20,620 nt of DNA from IMG/VR virus record IMGVR_UViG_3300028844_003364, positions 1-20,620 of that record; one strand, written 5' to 3'. Position 1 is the first letter of the stretch; each line of letters opens with the position of its first letter. The notes under the pieces were generated by a model. It saw only the letters and a list, made by a program, of their open reading frames with translations. It made no database searches and had not been told where the DNA came from. Position numbers and translations under genes: made by a program. The DNA comes from a virus. Shown here one piece after another: positions 3,435 through 15,628 of the stretch.

Positions 3435-4055
3435 ATGGAAGTAACTTACATAGATCATATGGGGAGCGACCTCAGTGTGGTAAATGCTGCACGAGTCAGC
3501 TTCGACAAAGAGCATCAGGAGTTTCAAGAAAATGACTATGGACTAATTGCCTACCTCTCCCAGAATAATCACTGGTCCCCCTTCGCCCATACATTCCTGT
3601 CGTTCCGTATCAAGGCTCCTATCTTTGTAGCTCGGCAGCTTGTGAAGCATCAGGTAGGGTTAGCTTGGAATGAAGTCAGTCGTCGTTACGTTAATAGTCC
3701 TCCTGAGTTCTACACGCCAGATGGTTGGCGTAAGGCAGCTAAGAACATAAAACAGGGGTCGTCTGATGAATTAGTGAACCTCGAATCTGAGCACCTGTAT
3801 GAGAAGCCTCTGGCAGTTTACAACCGTATGTTAGAAGCTGGCGTATGCCCTGAGCAAGCTAGGATGGTACTACCACAGTCGATGATGACAGAATGGATTT
3901 GGTCAGGGTCTCTGTATGCCTTCTCTCGTGTCTGCAACCTACGACTTGATGCTCATGCTCAGCGAGAGACTCAGGAAGTAGCTCAAGGGATTAGTTCTAT
4001 TGCTGCTGAGCACTTCCCTGCATCTTGGCCGATCCTTGTGCCAAACCGGCAGTGA
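3435..4055 (+). CDS. thyX: Flavin-dependent thymidylate synthase ThyX
   Basis: A 206-residue ThyX, which methylates dUMP to dTMP using FAD, NADPH and methylene-tetrahydrofolate. The body carries the family landmarks: VNAARVSFDK near the N-terminus, HWSPFAHT, the signature region KHQVGLAWNEVSRRY, and PEQARMVLPQ followed by a tryptophan-rich segment. The usual signature is RHR-X7-S. Here both arginines are replaced (KHQ) and the spacing to serine is eight residues, a variant I associate with phage enzymes. The start is ATG 3435 behind AGGAGAGGAG; an upstream TTG at 3411 is less likely. It fits with the dCMP deaminase and ribonucleotide reductase in a dTTP supply pathway. Confidence 0.92.
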   Translation: MEVTYIDHMGSDLSVVNAARVSFDKEHQEFQENDYGLIAYLSQNNHWSPFAHTFLSFRIKAPIFVARQLVKHQVGLAWNEVSRRYVNSPPEFYTPDGWRKAAKNIKQGSSDELVNLESEHLYEKPLAVYNRMLEAGVCPEQARMVLPQSMMTEWIWSGSLYAFSRVCNLRLDAHAQRETQEVAQGISSIAAEHFPASWPILVPNRQ

Positions 4056-4113: not shown

Positions 4114-4959
4114 ATGAAATACAAAGAGGCTGTCGAAGCCTACACATCATCAACCTGGTTTTTAGAGCTTGCAAGTAAAACTCAGAACGATTACTTGTAC
4201 TATCTGAATTATGCAGGGAAATTACTTCCCAAGACTATAAAAGACGTTACTCCTTTACTTACTGATAAGATTTATCTTAAAGTAAAGAATGCTAAGGGTG
4301 AACGCACAGCTCTCTATGTCTGCTCTGTTATGCGTAGGTTATGGAATTACTTGTATAGAATGGGCCATGTACCTTCTGTGCCGTGGGCTCAAATGGGTAT
4401 CAAGAATAACCTCAAGGCGAGAACTACCATATGGGATCAGGCAGATGTTGAGGCAGTAATTGACAAGGCACACTCAAAGGGTCTCTTAGGGCTTGCACTA
4501 TTTGTTTCACTGGCGTATGATACAGCACAGAGACCCTCAGACATCTTATCATTAACTTGGGATAACATCAAAGAAGATACGGCCCTATCTATTGACCAGC
4601 AGAAAACAGGAGCATCTGTATGTGTGCCTTTCACAGATCGTTCCAAAGGGCTCCTGCAAGAACGTCGAGATAAACTGCCTGATACAAAGATGGTAGTTTC
4701 TACGAAAACAGGCTTGAAGTTTCACTTGACAAACTTGCATAAAGAATTTATAATGGTACGCAATGAGTTAGGGCTCTCCCAGTCACTTCAGCTAAGGGAT
4801 TTACGCAGGACAGCCCTCACTGAATTAGGTAATGCAGGAGCTACGGAAGATGAGATTATGGCAGTGTCAGGGCATAAATCTAGACAAGTAGTTTCTGTAT
4901 ACGTTAAGAAAACAGATCAGCAAGCGATGAATGCTATGAACAAAAGGAACATGAAATGA
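4114..4959 (+). CDS. int: Tyrosine recombinase / phage integrase
   Basis: A 281-residue site-specific recombinase that would integrate or excise the phage genome. An N-terminal core-binding region (about 1-100) precedes a catalytic domain. In the latter, Arg140 (AQRPSDIL), Lys164 (QQKTGA), Arg231 (RDLRRTA), His254 (SGHKS) and the nucleophile Tyr263 (SVYVKK) can be assigned. The first histidine of the usual HxxR box is Arg228 here. The start at ATG 4114 follows GGAG by 8 nt; the frame extends back into thyX but without a ribosome site. It overlaps the amidase gene by ATGA. Its presence in a T7-like replication block suggests temperate ability. No attachment site could be identified nearby. Confidence 0.9.
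   Translation: MKYKEAVEAYTSSTWFLELASKTQNDYLYYLNYAGKLLPKTIKDVTPLLTDKIYLKVKNAKGERTALYVCSVMRRLWNYLYRMGHVPSVPWAQMGIKNNLKARTTIWDQADVEAVIDKAHSKGLLGLALFVSLAYDTAQRPSDILSLTWDNIKEDTALSIDQQKTGASVCVPFTDRSKGLLQERRDKLPDTKMVVSTKTGLKFHLTNLHKEFIMVRNELGLSQSLQLRDLRRTALTELGNAGATEDEIMAVSGHKSRQVVSVYVKKTDQQAMNAMNKRNMK
4726..4754 (+). promoter_or_regulatory. Perfect-consensus sigma70 promoter within int
   Basis: TTGACA (4726-4731), a 17-bp spacer, then TATAAT (4749-4754): a 12 of 12 match at ideal spacing. It lies inside the 3' part of the integrase gene. It would transcribe the amidase, HNH and primase-helicase genes from about 4761, making them independent of integrase expression. Confidence 0.65.
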
Positions 4960-5402
4960 AAACCAGAAAGCAGACTGATCTATTAGTCGTCCATTGCTCC
5001 TACACACCGCCTTCTATGGATGTAGGTGCAGATGTAATCAGGCAGTGGCACATGAGCCGAGGTTGGAGTGACATCGGGTATCATTATGTTATTACTCGGG
5101 CAGGGGACTTAGAAGCAGGGCGCAGAGAGGAAGCTCAAGGCGCTCACGTTAAGGGTCAGAATTGGCGCTCCATAGGAGTGTGCCTGATAGGCGGCAAATC
5201 CGAGGATGAAGACACTGACGAGTTCAACTACACGCAACCTCAGATGTTGGCCCTCAATGATCTCGTGAAGGGGCTGTGCGAGAGGTTCCCTGATATTCGT
5301 GTGGCAGGCCACAATGAGTTCTCTGAGAAGGAATGCCCGTGCTTCAATGTCCCTGCCTGGTGGAGCTTTGGAGACCTCTTAGGGAGGAAGGTATGCGGGT
5401 GA
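4956..5402 (+). CDS. T7-lysozyme-type N-acetylmuramoyl-L-alanine amidase
   Basis: A 148-residue zinc amidase close in length to T7 lysozyme (151 aa). It cuts the bond between muramic acid and the stem peptide of peptidoglycan. Zinc ligands appear as His13 (VVHCSYTP), His119 (AGHNEF) and Cys127. Tyr42 (GYHYVI) and Lys125 match the catalytic Tyr46 and Lys128 of T7. Spacing from His119 to Lys125 to Cys127 is the same as in T7. In T7 this protein also inhibits phage RNA polymerase; no such polymerase is seen here, so lysis is the likely role. The start overlaps the int stop (ATGA), with AAGGA upstream, and the end overlaps the HNH gene by 10 nt. Confidence 0.93.
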   Translation: MKTRKQTDLLVVHCSYTPPSMDVGADVIRQWHMSRGWSDIGYHYVITRAGDLEAGRREEAQGAHVKGQNWRSIGVCLIGGKSEDEDTDEFNYTQPQMLALNDLVKGLCERFPDIRVAGHNEFSEKECPCFNVPAWWSFGDLLGRKVCG

Positions 5403-5854
5403 AGAATGCGTTAACGTCTGCCTTAATAGAGGAGCGCGTGGATAAATGCCCTTTCACAGGTTGTTGGAATTGGCAGAAATATACGAGCACTAAGGGGTAT
5501 GGCATGGTTCGGGTAGGGGGAGAGCTCTGGCATGCCCACAGGGCAAGCTATAGTATATTTAAGGGGCCTATACCTCCCGGAAAGGTAGTGCTCCATAGTT
5601 GTGACAACCCAGCGTGTGCAAACCCCTACCATTTGAGGGTAGGCACCCAGAAGGACAATATTCTGGACATGCACCGTAAAGGGCGGCAGGCTAACAGGCA
5701 GGGAAGTAGCAATGGGAAGTCTAAGTTAACGGAAGGAGCTGTAGTGAGGATTAGAGAGGATGCCCGTCTTCTAAAGGAGATAGCGCATGATTATGGCGTA
5801 AGTATTAGCTGCATAGATAGAGTGAAGAACTTCAAGACATGGAGACACATTTGA
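5393..5854 (+). CDS. HNH homing-type endonuclease (first copy)
   Basis: A 153-residue free-standing HNH endonuclease. N-terminal CPFTGCWNW is followed by HAHRASYSIFKG and HSCDNPACANPYHL, which supply the histidine, asparagine and histidine of the beta-beta-alpha metal fold, then VGTQKDN. The C-terminal region (EIAHDYGVSISCIDRV) looks like a helix-turn-helix, and the protein ends in TWRHI. The start is ATG 5393, 5 nt after AGGGAGG. It is squeezed between amidase and primase-helicase with a 10-nt overlap upstream and no gap downstream, typical of an inserted mobile gene. It resembles the HNH at 15067 in layout. Confidence 0.88.
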   Translation: MRVKNALTSALIEERVDKCPFTGCWNWQKYTSTKGYGMVRVGGELWHAHRASYSIFKGPIPPGKVVLHSCDNPACANPYHLRVGTQKDNILDMHRKGRQANRQGSSNGKSKLTEGAVVRIREDARLLKEIAHDYGVSISCIDRVKNFKTWRHI

Positions 5855-12959: not shown

Positions 12960-15074
12960 ATGAACGAACAACACTACGGGCCTAAGAACCCCTTTTCACA
13001 AGAACTCCACGCCACCAAGTATCGGACTAAAGGAGAGTCCTTTCATGAAGCCATGTGTAGGATTGCGGCGGAGCTGTCAAGAAATGACGAAGAGCGCCAG
13101 ACCTACAAAGACATCCTCCTCACACAGCGGTTCCTCCCTGCGGGACGTATCCAAGCTGCAGTAGGAGCTGCCCGACAAGTTACTGCCATGAACTGCTATG
13201 CGTCCTCCGTTATTGAGGATAATTCTGACTCTATCTTTGAGGTGGTAAAGGAGGCTTTCATGACGATGCGGGTAGGAGGAGGCATAGGTTTTGACTTCAG
13301 CCGCCTCCGCCCTGAGGGATACAGGATTTCTACTCTAGAGTCTTCCAGCTCTGGTCCTCTCAGTTTTATGGATATCTTTGATGCTGTTTGCGCGACAGTG
13401 ATGGGGGCGGGTCACCGAAGAGGGGCCATGCTAGCTACTCTGAGCATATCCCATCCTGACATTGAGGAGTTTATCCGTGCCAAGCAGAATGAAACGAGGT
13501 TCCGCAATTTTAATGTATCCGTAGGGGTGACTGATAAGTTTATGCAGGCTCTTGAAGCGGGGGAGGACTTCCCTCTAGAGTTTGATGGGAAAGTAGACAG
13601 ATGGGTTTCTGCTCGGGGGCTCTGGGATGAGATAATGCGATCCACCTATGATTGGGCTGAACCAGGTGTTCTATTTATTGACCGTATTAATAAGATGAAT
13701 AACCTACACTGGCTAGAGGACATCCGGGTTACAAATCCTTGTTTCACTGGAGACATGGAGGTCTGGACTTCTGAAGGCCCTAAGACGTTTAAGGAGCTAG
13801 AGGGAACTACTGTTAAGGTGTTGACCGAGACAGATGACCATAAGCTTGTGCTAAGGAGCATGGATGTCTTTAAGACAGGTGTTGATAAATCTCTCATTGA
13901 AGTAACTTTGGATGATGGGACTATTATTGAATGCACACCTGAGCATGAGTTCTTTGATATTAATCGTAATAAAGTAGAGGCTAAAGACCTTACAGAGGGT
14001 GCTAGACTAGCTTCTGTATATCGTCATAAGGTCATTTCTGTAAAGTTAATAGACAAGGTGGCAGATGTTTACTGCGGAACTGTTGAAGAAACTCATAGGT
14101 TCTTTCTTTCATGTGACAGAGGCGCTATCCTGGTCTCTAACTGTGGCGAGGTCCCTCTACAGCCAAACGGGGCTTGCCTCCTCGGGAGCTTTAACCTCAC
14201 TAAGTATTTGGCAGGGGGGGAGCAGGGAGTCCCCTATCAGTTTGACTATGAAGGCCTTAAAAAGGATATCCCCTCTGTAGTTAAGATGATCGACTCCGTT
14301 ATTGACACCACTACATACCCTCTAGAGAGCCAAAAAGTAGAGGCTACCACTAAAAGGAGAATGGGGCTAGGGATTACAGGACTCGCCAATACTGCTGAAA
14401 TACTAGGAACTCCTTATGGGTCCCCCGAGATGATCGACTTCACGAAGTCTGTTTTAGAGGTTATCCGGGATGAGGCCTATAGGGCATCTATCTCTTTAGC
14501 GAAGGAGCGAGGTCCCTTTGAAGCCTTCGACAGAGATCAGTATTTGGCAGGGAATTTTGTCCAGACTCTTCCCGAGGATATTAAAAAGGGCATCTGGGAG
14601 CATGGTATTCGGAACTCTCACTTGACTTCTATCGCCCCCACGGGGACTATTAGTTTGACTGCAGACAATATCTCTTCAGGACTTGAGCCAGTGTTCTCTC
14701 TCCAGACTCAACGGATAGTGAACATGCCTTCAGGACCTCAGAATGTCCTCCTGAAAGACTATGCCTACAACTACTACGGTGTAAAGGGCAAGACTTCAGA
14801 GGAAGTGACTACCCAAGAGCATGTTGAAGTCCTTAAAGCAACTGTCCCTTTTATCGACAGTGCTGTAAGTAAGACTTGCAACATTGGGTCGGAGGTTTCT
14901 TGGGAAGAATTTAAGGGAGTGTACCTTCAGGCTTATGAGGCAGGAGCTAAAGGGATAACAACTTTCCGTCCTGCAGGTAAGCGTTTCGGCATCCTAACGG
15001 CCTCCCCTGAGGAGTCGTCTGAAGGAGCTGCATGTTTCATCGACCCTGAAACAGGGAGTAAAACTTGTGAGTAA
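12960..15074 (+). CDS. nrdJ: Class II (B12-dependent) ribonucleotide reductase with intein
   Basis: A 704-residue precursor of adenosylcobalamin-dependent ribonucleotide reductase, which makes dNTPs from ribonucleotides. Class II landmarks are TAMNCYASS (Cys79), GAGHRRGAMLATLSISHPD, the NPCGEVPL radical-site motif, RRMGLGITGLAN, APTGTISLTADNISSGLEP and GAKGITTFRP. Cys692 and Cys703 near the C-terminus may be the redox shuttle. NPCGE is split by a 134-residue intein (residues 261-394), so the mature enzyme would be 570 residues. No small-subunit gene (nrdB) follows, consistent with class II. The start at ATG 12960 follows AGGA by 10 nt. The 3' end is duplicated around the downstream HNH gene. 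Confidence 0.93.
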   Translation: MNEQHYGPKNPFSQELHATKYRTKGESFHEAMCRIAAELSRNDEERQTYKDILLTQRFLPAGRIQAAVGAARQVTAMNCYASSVIEDNSDSIFEVVKEAFMTMRVGGGIGFDFSRLRPEGYRISTLESSSSGPLSFMDIFDAVCATVMGAGHRRGAMLATLSISHPDIEEFIRAKQNETRFRNFNVSVGVTDKFMQALEAGEDFPLEFDGKVDRWVSARGLWDEIMRSTYDWAEPGVLFIDRINKMNNLHWLEDIRVTNPCFTGDMEVWTSEGPKTFKELEGTTVKVLTETDDHKLVLRSMDVFKTGVDKSLIEVTLDDGTIIECTPEHEFFDINRNKVEAKDLTEGARLASVYRHKVISVKLIDKVADVYCGTVEETHRFFLSCDRGAILVSNCGEVPLQPNGACLLGSFNLTKYLAGGEQGVPYQFDYEGLKKDIPSVVKMIDSVIDTTTYPLESQKVEATTKRRMGLGITGLANTAEILGTPYGSPEMIDFTKSVLEVIRDEAYRASISLAKERGPFEAFDRDQYLAGNFVQTLPEDIKKGIWEHGIRNSHLTSIAPTGTISLTADNISSGLEPVFSLQTQRIVNMPSGPQNVLLKDYAYNYYGVKGKTSEEVTTQEHVEVLKATVPFIDSAVSKTCNIGSEVSWEEFKGVYLQAYEAGAKGITTFRPAGKRFGILTASPEESSEGAACFIDPETGSKTCE
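13740..14141 (+). other. Mini-intein (134 aa) at the radical cysteine of NrdJ
   Basis: The encoded segment begins at Cys261 with CFTGDMEVWTSEGP (block A). It has CTPEHEFF (block B), VYCGTVEETHRFFL (block F) and ends ILVSN before Cys395 (block G). Splicing would join NP to CGEVPL and restore the class II active site. No homing-endonuclease domain lies between blocks B and F. At 134 residues it is close to the smallest natural inteins. The penultimate residue is serine rather than the usual histidine. The downstream nucleophile, Cys395, is expected to be the thiyl-radical cysteine of the enzyme. Confidence 0.93.
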
Positions 15075-15559
15075 TACTAGTAATATTTGTAACAAAGAGC
15101 TAATTGAAAGCAGGGTCTATAAAGACCCATTCTCAGGGTGCTGGAACTGGACCAGAGGAAAGGATAAAGATGGGTACGGGAAAATAAAAGTAGAGGGCAG
15201 GAGCTTAAGGGCCCATAGGGTCTCTTATCAGGTGTTTAAGGGGGAGTTTCCAGAGAACCTCCAAACCCTGCACTCGTGTGATAACCCCTCTTGCTGTAAC
15301 CCAGACCACCTGTGGGTAGGCTCGAACGCAGATAACATGGCAGATCGGGACAACAAGGGCAGGACCGCTAGAGGGGAGAGGAACGGGGGAGGAGGGAAGC
15401 TTAAGGAAGAAGAGGTCAGACTAATCCTTTCAGATACCAGACGTACTGGCCTAGTCGCAGAAGACTTTGGGGTTAGTATAGCCCTAGTCTACAAGATAAG
15501 AACTGGAGAAGTCTGGAAGCACATCGACCCTGAAACAGGGAGTAAAACTTGTGAGTAAT
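15038..15559 (+). repeat. Perfect 38-bp direct repeats flanking the HNH gene
   Basis: Bases 15038-15075 recur without mismatch at 15522-15559, 484 bp apart. The repeat holds the last 11 codons and stop of nrdJ, a GGGAG ribosome site and the start GTGAGTAAT of the following frame. The first copy ends nrdJ and starts the HNH gene. The second ends the HNH gene in the nrdJ reading frame and starts the small frame at 15551. Removing one repeat plus the interval would leave nrdJ intact. Confidence 0.95.
15067..15558 (+). CDS. HNH homing-type endonuclease inserted behind nrdJ
   Basis: A 163-residue HNH endonuclease of the same type as that at 5393: DPFSGCWNW, RAHRVSYQVFKG, HSCDNPSCCNPDHLWVGSNADN and a C-terminal helix-turn-helix-like part (VAEDFGVSIALVYKI). 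It uses GTG 15067 inside the nrdJ end, 8 nt after GGGAG. Its C-terminus, WKHIDPETGSKTCE, fuses the family ending (compare WRHI at the end of the other copy) to the last 11 residues of NrdJ. It probably acts as a free-standing homing endonuclease that cuts nrdJ or a neighbouring site in genomes lacking the insert. The target is inferred. Confidence 0.9.
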   Translation: MSNTSNICNKELIESRVYKDPFSGCWNWTRGKDKDGYGKIKVEGRSLRAHRVSYQVFKGEFPENLQTLHSCDNPSCCNPDHLWVGSNADNMADRDNKGRTARGERNGGGGKLKEEEVRLILSDTRRTGLVAEDFGVSIALVYKIRTGEVWKHIDPETGSKTCE

Positions 15560-15628
15560 GTTGTGTTGACAGTCATTGCAGTATGTTATATACTGTATCT
15601 TCATTCAAACAGAGAGAGGTACAAATGA
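15551..15628 (+). CDS. Putative 25-aa membrane peptide after nrdJ
   Basis: A short frame from GTG 15551 in the second copy of the 38-bp repeat, with GGGAG 8 nt upstream. It reads MSN followed by the hydrophobic run VVLTVIAVCYILYL and a basic tail (RERYK). Its stop overlaps the DUF3310 start at 15625 (ATGA). Ribosome site, hydrophobic span and coupling on both sides argue for a real gene, which in the ancestor would have started inside the nrdJ end. The promoter at 15566 lies within it, and its shortness limits confidence. Confidence 0.45.
   Translation: MSNVVLTVIAVCYILYLHSNRERYK
15566..15594 (+). promoter_or_regulatory. Sigma70 promoter for the DUF3310 operon
   Basis: TTGACA (15566-15571), a 17-bp spacer, then TATACT (15589-15594): 11 of 12 consensus bases. 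Transcription would start near 15601, just before the ribosome site AGAGAGAGG of the DUF3310 gene. It begins 7 bp after the right-hand 38-bp repeat. Confidence 0.75.

Follow-up and report, generated by a model that had tools for sequence, protein, structure and literature searches.

The precedent that we found for an endonuclease gene flanked by duplicated ends of its host gene comes from fungal mitochondria. Mobile ORFs at atp6 of Allomyces macrogynus and at atp6, atp9, cox2 and nad3 of Glomus sp. place an endonuclease gene where an essential gene ends, with two copies of the C-terminus flanking it and the host gene still functional; the inserted end is foreign and diverged, and the Glomus atp6 element is of the LAGLIDADG type (PMC3630166). 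Phage endonuclease genes cluster close to ribonucleotide reductase genes (PMC10448857). MobE of T4 and Aeh1, between nrdA and nrdB, is a free-standing HNH gene of this kind, and several free-standing HNH genes of these phages overlap the upstream stop codon, for which translational coupling has been suggested; the passages of that account that a term search retrieves do not mention flanking duplications of host ends (PMC2988022). In mycobacteriophage LRRHood, a 1.35 kb insertion found in this one phage lies at the 3' end of a gene between 29-bp direct repeats that are single in relatives; it has four genes including a repressor, and no endonuclease reading into the repeat is described (PMC3029335).

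Here we analyse IMG/VR record IMGVR_UViG_3300028844_003364, positions 1 to 20,620 (the whole stretch of 20,620 nt is called the window below), in which a free-standing HNH gene lies between nrdJ, encoding a ribonucleotide reductase, and a putative small frame. As in the fungal elements, two copies of the host gene end flank the endonuclease gene. Unlike them, this is a phage HNH gene whose repeat is 38 bp long with identical copies, and the start of the next gene is restored as well. The locus shares with MobE its position beside a ribonucleotide reductase gene, and with the LRRHood insertion a short direct repeat that lies where a gene ends and of which relatives have one copy. The HNH protein resembles I-HmuI, the HNH homing endonuclease of phage SPO1, in its fold and in its HNH_3 and zinc-loop profiles, but I-HmuI is intron-encoded whereas the window gene is free-standing and carries a captured host tail. 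In the literature searched, whose coverage leaves out most subscription journals, we found no description of host-end duplication or capture at phage HNH genes.

An HNH gene is bracketed by two copies of the nrdJ end

The direct repeat (family D4 in our scan) has two copies that are 100% identical over 38 nt and spaced 484 nt from start to start (Table 1); the number of exact 38-nt repeats expected by chance in 20.6 kb is about 3e-15. Each copy encodes the conserved tail of NrdJ with its stop codon and also carries a ribosome site and GTGAGTAAT, where the next frame starts in overlap. In the left copy nrdJ reaches its end (...CFIDPETGSKTCE*), and the GTG at 15067 opens the HNH frame. The HNH frame in turn runs into the right copy in the codon phase of the NrdJ tail and ends there (...WKHIDPETGSKTCE*), and the GTG of this copy at 15551 opens a 25-codon frame (MSNVVLTVIAVCYILYLHSNRERYK), the stop of which overlaps the ATG at 15625. 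The same arrangement with both repeat copies is present in a separately assembled twin contig, IMGVR_UViG_3300028829_004000 (31.7 kb), which over 12 kb shows 3 differences to the window, with the repeat/HNH region free of them, and which was the only match in an exact-repeat scan of viral contigs. An earlier note, made from the letters and reading frames of the window, had claimed a perfect repeat bracketing the HNH gene, this content and these roles for the left and right copies, and all of this is confirmed.

Table 1. Features around the nrdJ/HNH junction, in window coordinates
Feature	Position	Strand	Basis
nrdJ, class II (B12-dependent) ribonucleotide reductase, 704 codons including intein	12960..15074	+	PF02867, TIGR02504, identity to AAT-1
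Intein, 134 aa, without endonuclease domain, NrdJ site TNP|CGE	13740..14141	+	TIGR01445, TIGR01443, PF14890
Left repeat copy: NrdJ's native tail with stop codon, GGGAG ribosome site, and the GTGAGTAAT start that HNH uses	15038..15075	+	Exact repeat; tail conserved in relatives; -8 GTG overlap recurring at nrdJ ends
HNH endonuclease gene (HNH_3), free-standing, 163 codons, C-terminus from NrdJ tail	15067..15558	+	PF13392, phrog_1872, AlphaFold model
Inserted HNH segment, unique, 446 bp between repeat copies	15076..15521	+	Missing from syntenic L033 and 79 nrdJ loci
Right repeat copy: in-frame HNH end, ribosome site, GTG of next frame	15522..15559	+	Exact repeat
Putative 25-codon frame, one hydrophobic stretch	15551..15628	+	Open reading frame; 8-nt overlap with HNH stop, 4-nt overlap with DUF3310 start
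DUF3310-like gene, synteny marker with L033	15625..15978	+	phrog_5839, E 1.4e-9; 55% to L033 protein

A transposon with a target-site duplication was considered and rejected: there is no transposase and there are no terminal inverted repeats (none of at least 18 nt at the element ends in a repeat scan of the window), and the sole gene inside is the HNH gene. The window has two further repeat regions elsewhere, a 381-codon frame at 1701-2846 with about 40 tandem 18-bp units (a six-residue repeat, e.g. GNAWVS) and three tandem 60-bp units at 352-548, at the left end of the contig.

The upstream gene matches PF02867 (E 6.6e-105) and, above the cut-off, TIGR02504 (NrdJ_Z), and the C-terminal 310 aa of its product are 58% identical to Pamexvirus AAT-1. 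The tail C-x-IDPETGxx[S/T]CE is conserved in Pamexvirus, YuA and Zobellviridae phages (CxIDPETGRRSCE or a near variant in Pamexvirus, YuA and one Zobellviridae phage), and tails of this type recur in a set of 71 distinct viral nrdJ ends. The tail within the repeat is therefore NrdJ's own, and the left copy, which had been claimed to finish nrdJ, matches it.

The HNH protein scores 39.7 bits against PF13392 (gathering cut-off 24.8) and matches phrog_1872 (E 9e-33); its best relative is about 50% identical in amino acids. A sequence-profile search found no relative of solved structure. The top Foldseek match of the AlphaFold model is I-HmuI (1u3e; probability 1.00, E 2.8e-3), with a global TM of only 0.38. 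C25, W28, R51, H69, C71, D72, C76, H81, N90 and D93 are invariant across 37 aligned members, so that the predicted catalytic and zinc residues are intact as judged from the alignment. The model is confident except at the captured ends. The protein ends in WKH+IDPETGSKTCE, whereas the usual stop in the family falls at W-x-H-[I/V]: in 79 of 118 motif-bearing family members the stop lies 0-1 residue past the motif, and the window protein continues for 10 further residues, all derived from the repeat. Since most motif-bearing members stop at or just past the motif, the C-terminal extension is derived.

The translations also bear out the comparison made earlier with a relative encoded in the window itself, which ends ...KTWRHI*. 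This second HNH_3 gene (5393-5854) sits between endolysin and primase-helicase genes, its start overlapping the endolysin stop and the primase ATG following directly after its own stop. No flank duplication was detected around it.

Relatives without the HNH gene have a single nrdJ end

The closest syntenic relative is the viral contig L033, with an NrdJ that is 65% identical. Its order is nrdJ with a single tail copy, then a small frame with a GTG start that overlaps the stop of nrdJ, then DUF3310 and the next gene, and there is no HNH gene. The HNH gene of the window thus has the layout of a free-standing homing endonuclease gene, lying between conserved genes and missing from the syntenic relative. 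A profile search found no HNH gene near nrdJ in 79 relative nrdJ loci. A GTG at -8 that overlaps the nrdJ stop recurs among nrdJ ends, and in two of them (L049 and L101) the overlap is exactly GTGAGTAAT. Since this overlap recurs at nrdJ ends that have no HNH gene, the HNH gene borrowed a host start; together with the single-copy relatives, it indicates that the insertion is the derived state and that start and tail were both borrowed from the host junction.

The earlier note had proposed an insertion behind nrdJ that left both neighbours working, to be supported by related genomes with a single copy running straight from nrdJ into the small frame and contradicted by relatives with two copies and no HNH gene. 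L033 shows the single-copy layout, although the frame in the coupled position is a different one (46 codons, not homologous to the 25-codon frame of the window). A second tail copy was present at none of the 71 distinct nrdJ 3' ends (within 1.5 kb, as far as contigs reach; best 20/36 positions). Both results support the insertion, with the proviso that the 25-codon frame is putative. A nucleotide search of the region against 50,697 phage records returned only a weak nrdJ match, so that named phages provide no near relative, and a scan for DUF3310 limited synteny to the twin contig and L033. We found no empty-site relative closer than 65% NrdJ identity. As the small frame of L033 is also not homologous, the exact pre-insertion sequence is a reconstruction.

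Host gene ends are duplicated at other HNH loci

We screened 154 HNH loci with neighbour genes, comparing the ends of the neighbour genes with the opposite side of the HNH gene. The protein screen was restricted to real neighbour ORFs; GC-rich antisense frames over-score. Host gene ends are duplicated around the HNH gene at about eight loci, in several forms. Tail capture recurs in L021, where the upstream gene ends in WIETARRDV and the HNH gene in RIETARREV, each at its own stop; the copies (3910-3938 and 4323-4351) cover the last nine codons of the upstream gene and have diverged, mostly by synonymous changes, and the ATG of the next gene overlaps the HNH stop. A search found no homologues of the L021 upstream protein. 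In L136 (1890-2500) and L219 (1189-2006) it is the start that is captured: the downstream gene's first 15-20 codons are copied at the beginning of the HNH frame. In L142 (1831-2500), the HNH gene is flanked by two copies, one truncated and one full, of the start of a gene (MTTWIELCAGSAALSCVLTGG) that we take to be methyltransferase-like (Pfam gave no match); the two copies are nearly identical in protein and 46/75 nt identical in DNA. Further truncated start remnants occur in L184 (DNA polymerase) and L162 (WbqC-like), and in L129 the tail of the upstream gene is repeated behind the HNH gene. The foreign or diverged copy that characterises the fungal elements, absent from the window, is thus found in L142 and L021.

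A score of at least 50 was reached by 6 of the 154 genuine HNH loci and by 2 of 1500 mismatched pairs (p 1.4e-5). The genuine-locus count excludes L015, which is a pair of HNH paralogues, and L129 (score 49) and L021 (38) lie below the threshold and were accepted by inspection. Ordinary ORFs reached the same score in 3 of 205 cases (p 0.18 against the HNH loci), so that an excess over ordinary genes is not statistically established and the argument is carried by positional logic. On inspection, the match in L126 is a tandem repeat, that in L174 reflects low complexity, and that in L122 (3425-4474) consists of two neighbouring similar genes, AQCSSTFEGRHVNIVES and EECSSTYEGRHITLEES. None of 12 HNH loci of named phages has a flank duplication, which indicates that end duplication is uncommon. 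It is real where seen, and it looks like a recurring route into crowded genomes; its occurrence at HNH genes of unrelated viruses speaks for the insertion reading of the window locus.

As a separate observation, the annotated HNH gene overlaps the beginning of the following gene by 17-41 nt in the T7-like phages NK20, HC12, Pf1 ERZ-2017 and P1723 (L283, L284, L288 and L289).

Origin of the duplication

Because nrdJ and the next frame share 8 bases, the junction has no neutral insertion point: any cut damages either the tail of the one or the start of the other, and both neighbours survive only if the insertion duplicates the overlap. Very probably, a free-standing HNH gene was inserted into this 8-nt overlap, which was duplicated by copying or repair so that both neighbours stayed intact. 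In the copy-choice origin that we infer, the copying or repair would have departed from the phage sequence behind GTGAGTAAT and rejoined it, on another phage genome copy, at CATC, the last HNH codon; as the re-entry point lies 38 bp upstream of the exit point, the overlap would be duplicated. The CATC at the junction, pointed out in the earlier note, is indeed present and may represent microhomology. In T4 introns, illegitimate break repair is reported to give short-homology junctions of this type (PMC2988022). The left copy would finish NrdJ and lend the HNH gene a ribosome site and start codon, presumably coupling its translation to that of nrdJ. The right copy would end the HNH gene in frame, at the family's normal stop codon position, and return the original ribosome site and start to the downstream frame. 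As the two copies are identical, either may, by its sequence, be the original. The HNH protein presumably nicks HNH-less alleles of the region and spreads by homing, and recombination between the repeat copies would restore the empty site.

The element could instead have arrived with an nrdJ tail from another phage and inserted upstream of the resident tail, its own copy replacing the native one. Diverged ends of that kind occur in the Glomus and Allomyces elements (PMC3630166), and the duplicated host ends of L142, L162, L184 and L021 likewise differ in DNA with the protein conserved. However, the copies in the window are identical over all 38 bp, synonymous positions included, which favours duplication in place or a very recent transfer from a near-identical phage, and we regard a foreign tail as unlikely. 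Nor does it seem at all probable that the tail was kept because it is useful to the HNH protein, for stability or autoregulation, rather than to spare the neighbours. The HNH frame does read through the whole tail to terminate precisely at the tail's stop, but most family relatives lack such a tail, it is a low-confidence part of the AlphaFold model, and in L142, L184 and L162 what is duplicated stands apart from the HNH gene as a remnant of its own.

A tandem duplication of the 38 bp, with the HNH gene landing between the copies later, would give the same final layout; it requires two events and an exact in-frame landing, and with no second tail copy at any of the 71 nrdJ ends we consider it highly improbable. 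Typical short reads are longer than 38 bp. A misjoining of reads at the short repeat, conceivable in that both sequences are virus contigs from sequence collections, is therefore hard to credit, and the agreement of two contigs of 20.6 and 31.7 kb, together with open and coherent frames across both junctions, makes such an artefact extremely unlikely. Insertion with duplication of the overlap thus remains our preferred reading.

Implications for phage endonuclease genes

On a broader and tentative reading, which we think possible but on balance doubtful, host-end capture would be a general strategy of free-standing HNH genes at overlapping phage genes, with the overlap duplicated and host start, stop or both borrowed, and the window HNH may be the missing homing enzyme of the endonuclease-free intein 0.9 kb upstream. 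This intein is missing from the nrdJ of L033, and among about 70 nrdJ loci only one other, L093, has a long insert at the intein site; that locus is without an HNH gene. According to Wilson and Edgell (2009), as cited in PMC2988022, T4 mobE mobilises an adjoining defunct element in trans, and by analogy the window HNH could act on the nrdJ intein in the same way. If so, cutting of intein-less, HNH-less alleles would spread intein and HNH gene jointly.

Phage genes often overlap, and a selfish gene entering such a junction is expected to break one of its neighbours. The locus described here suggests an escape route, in which the overlap is duplicated and the intruder reads into one of the copies. 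Seven other HNH genes have related layouts, which suggests a searchable sequence signature. Such a signature would expose endonuclease genes that were inserted recently, show where they entered and probably where their products cut, and would account for odd C- or N-terminal extensions on phage nucleases.
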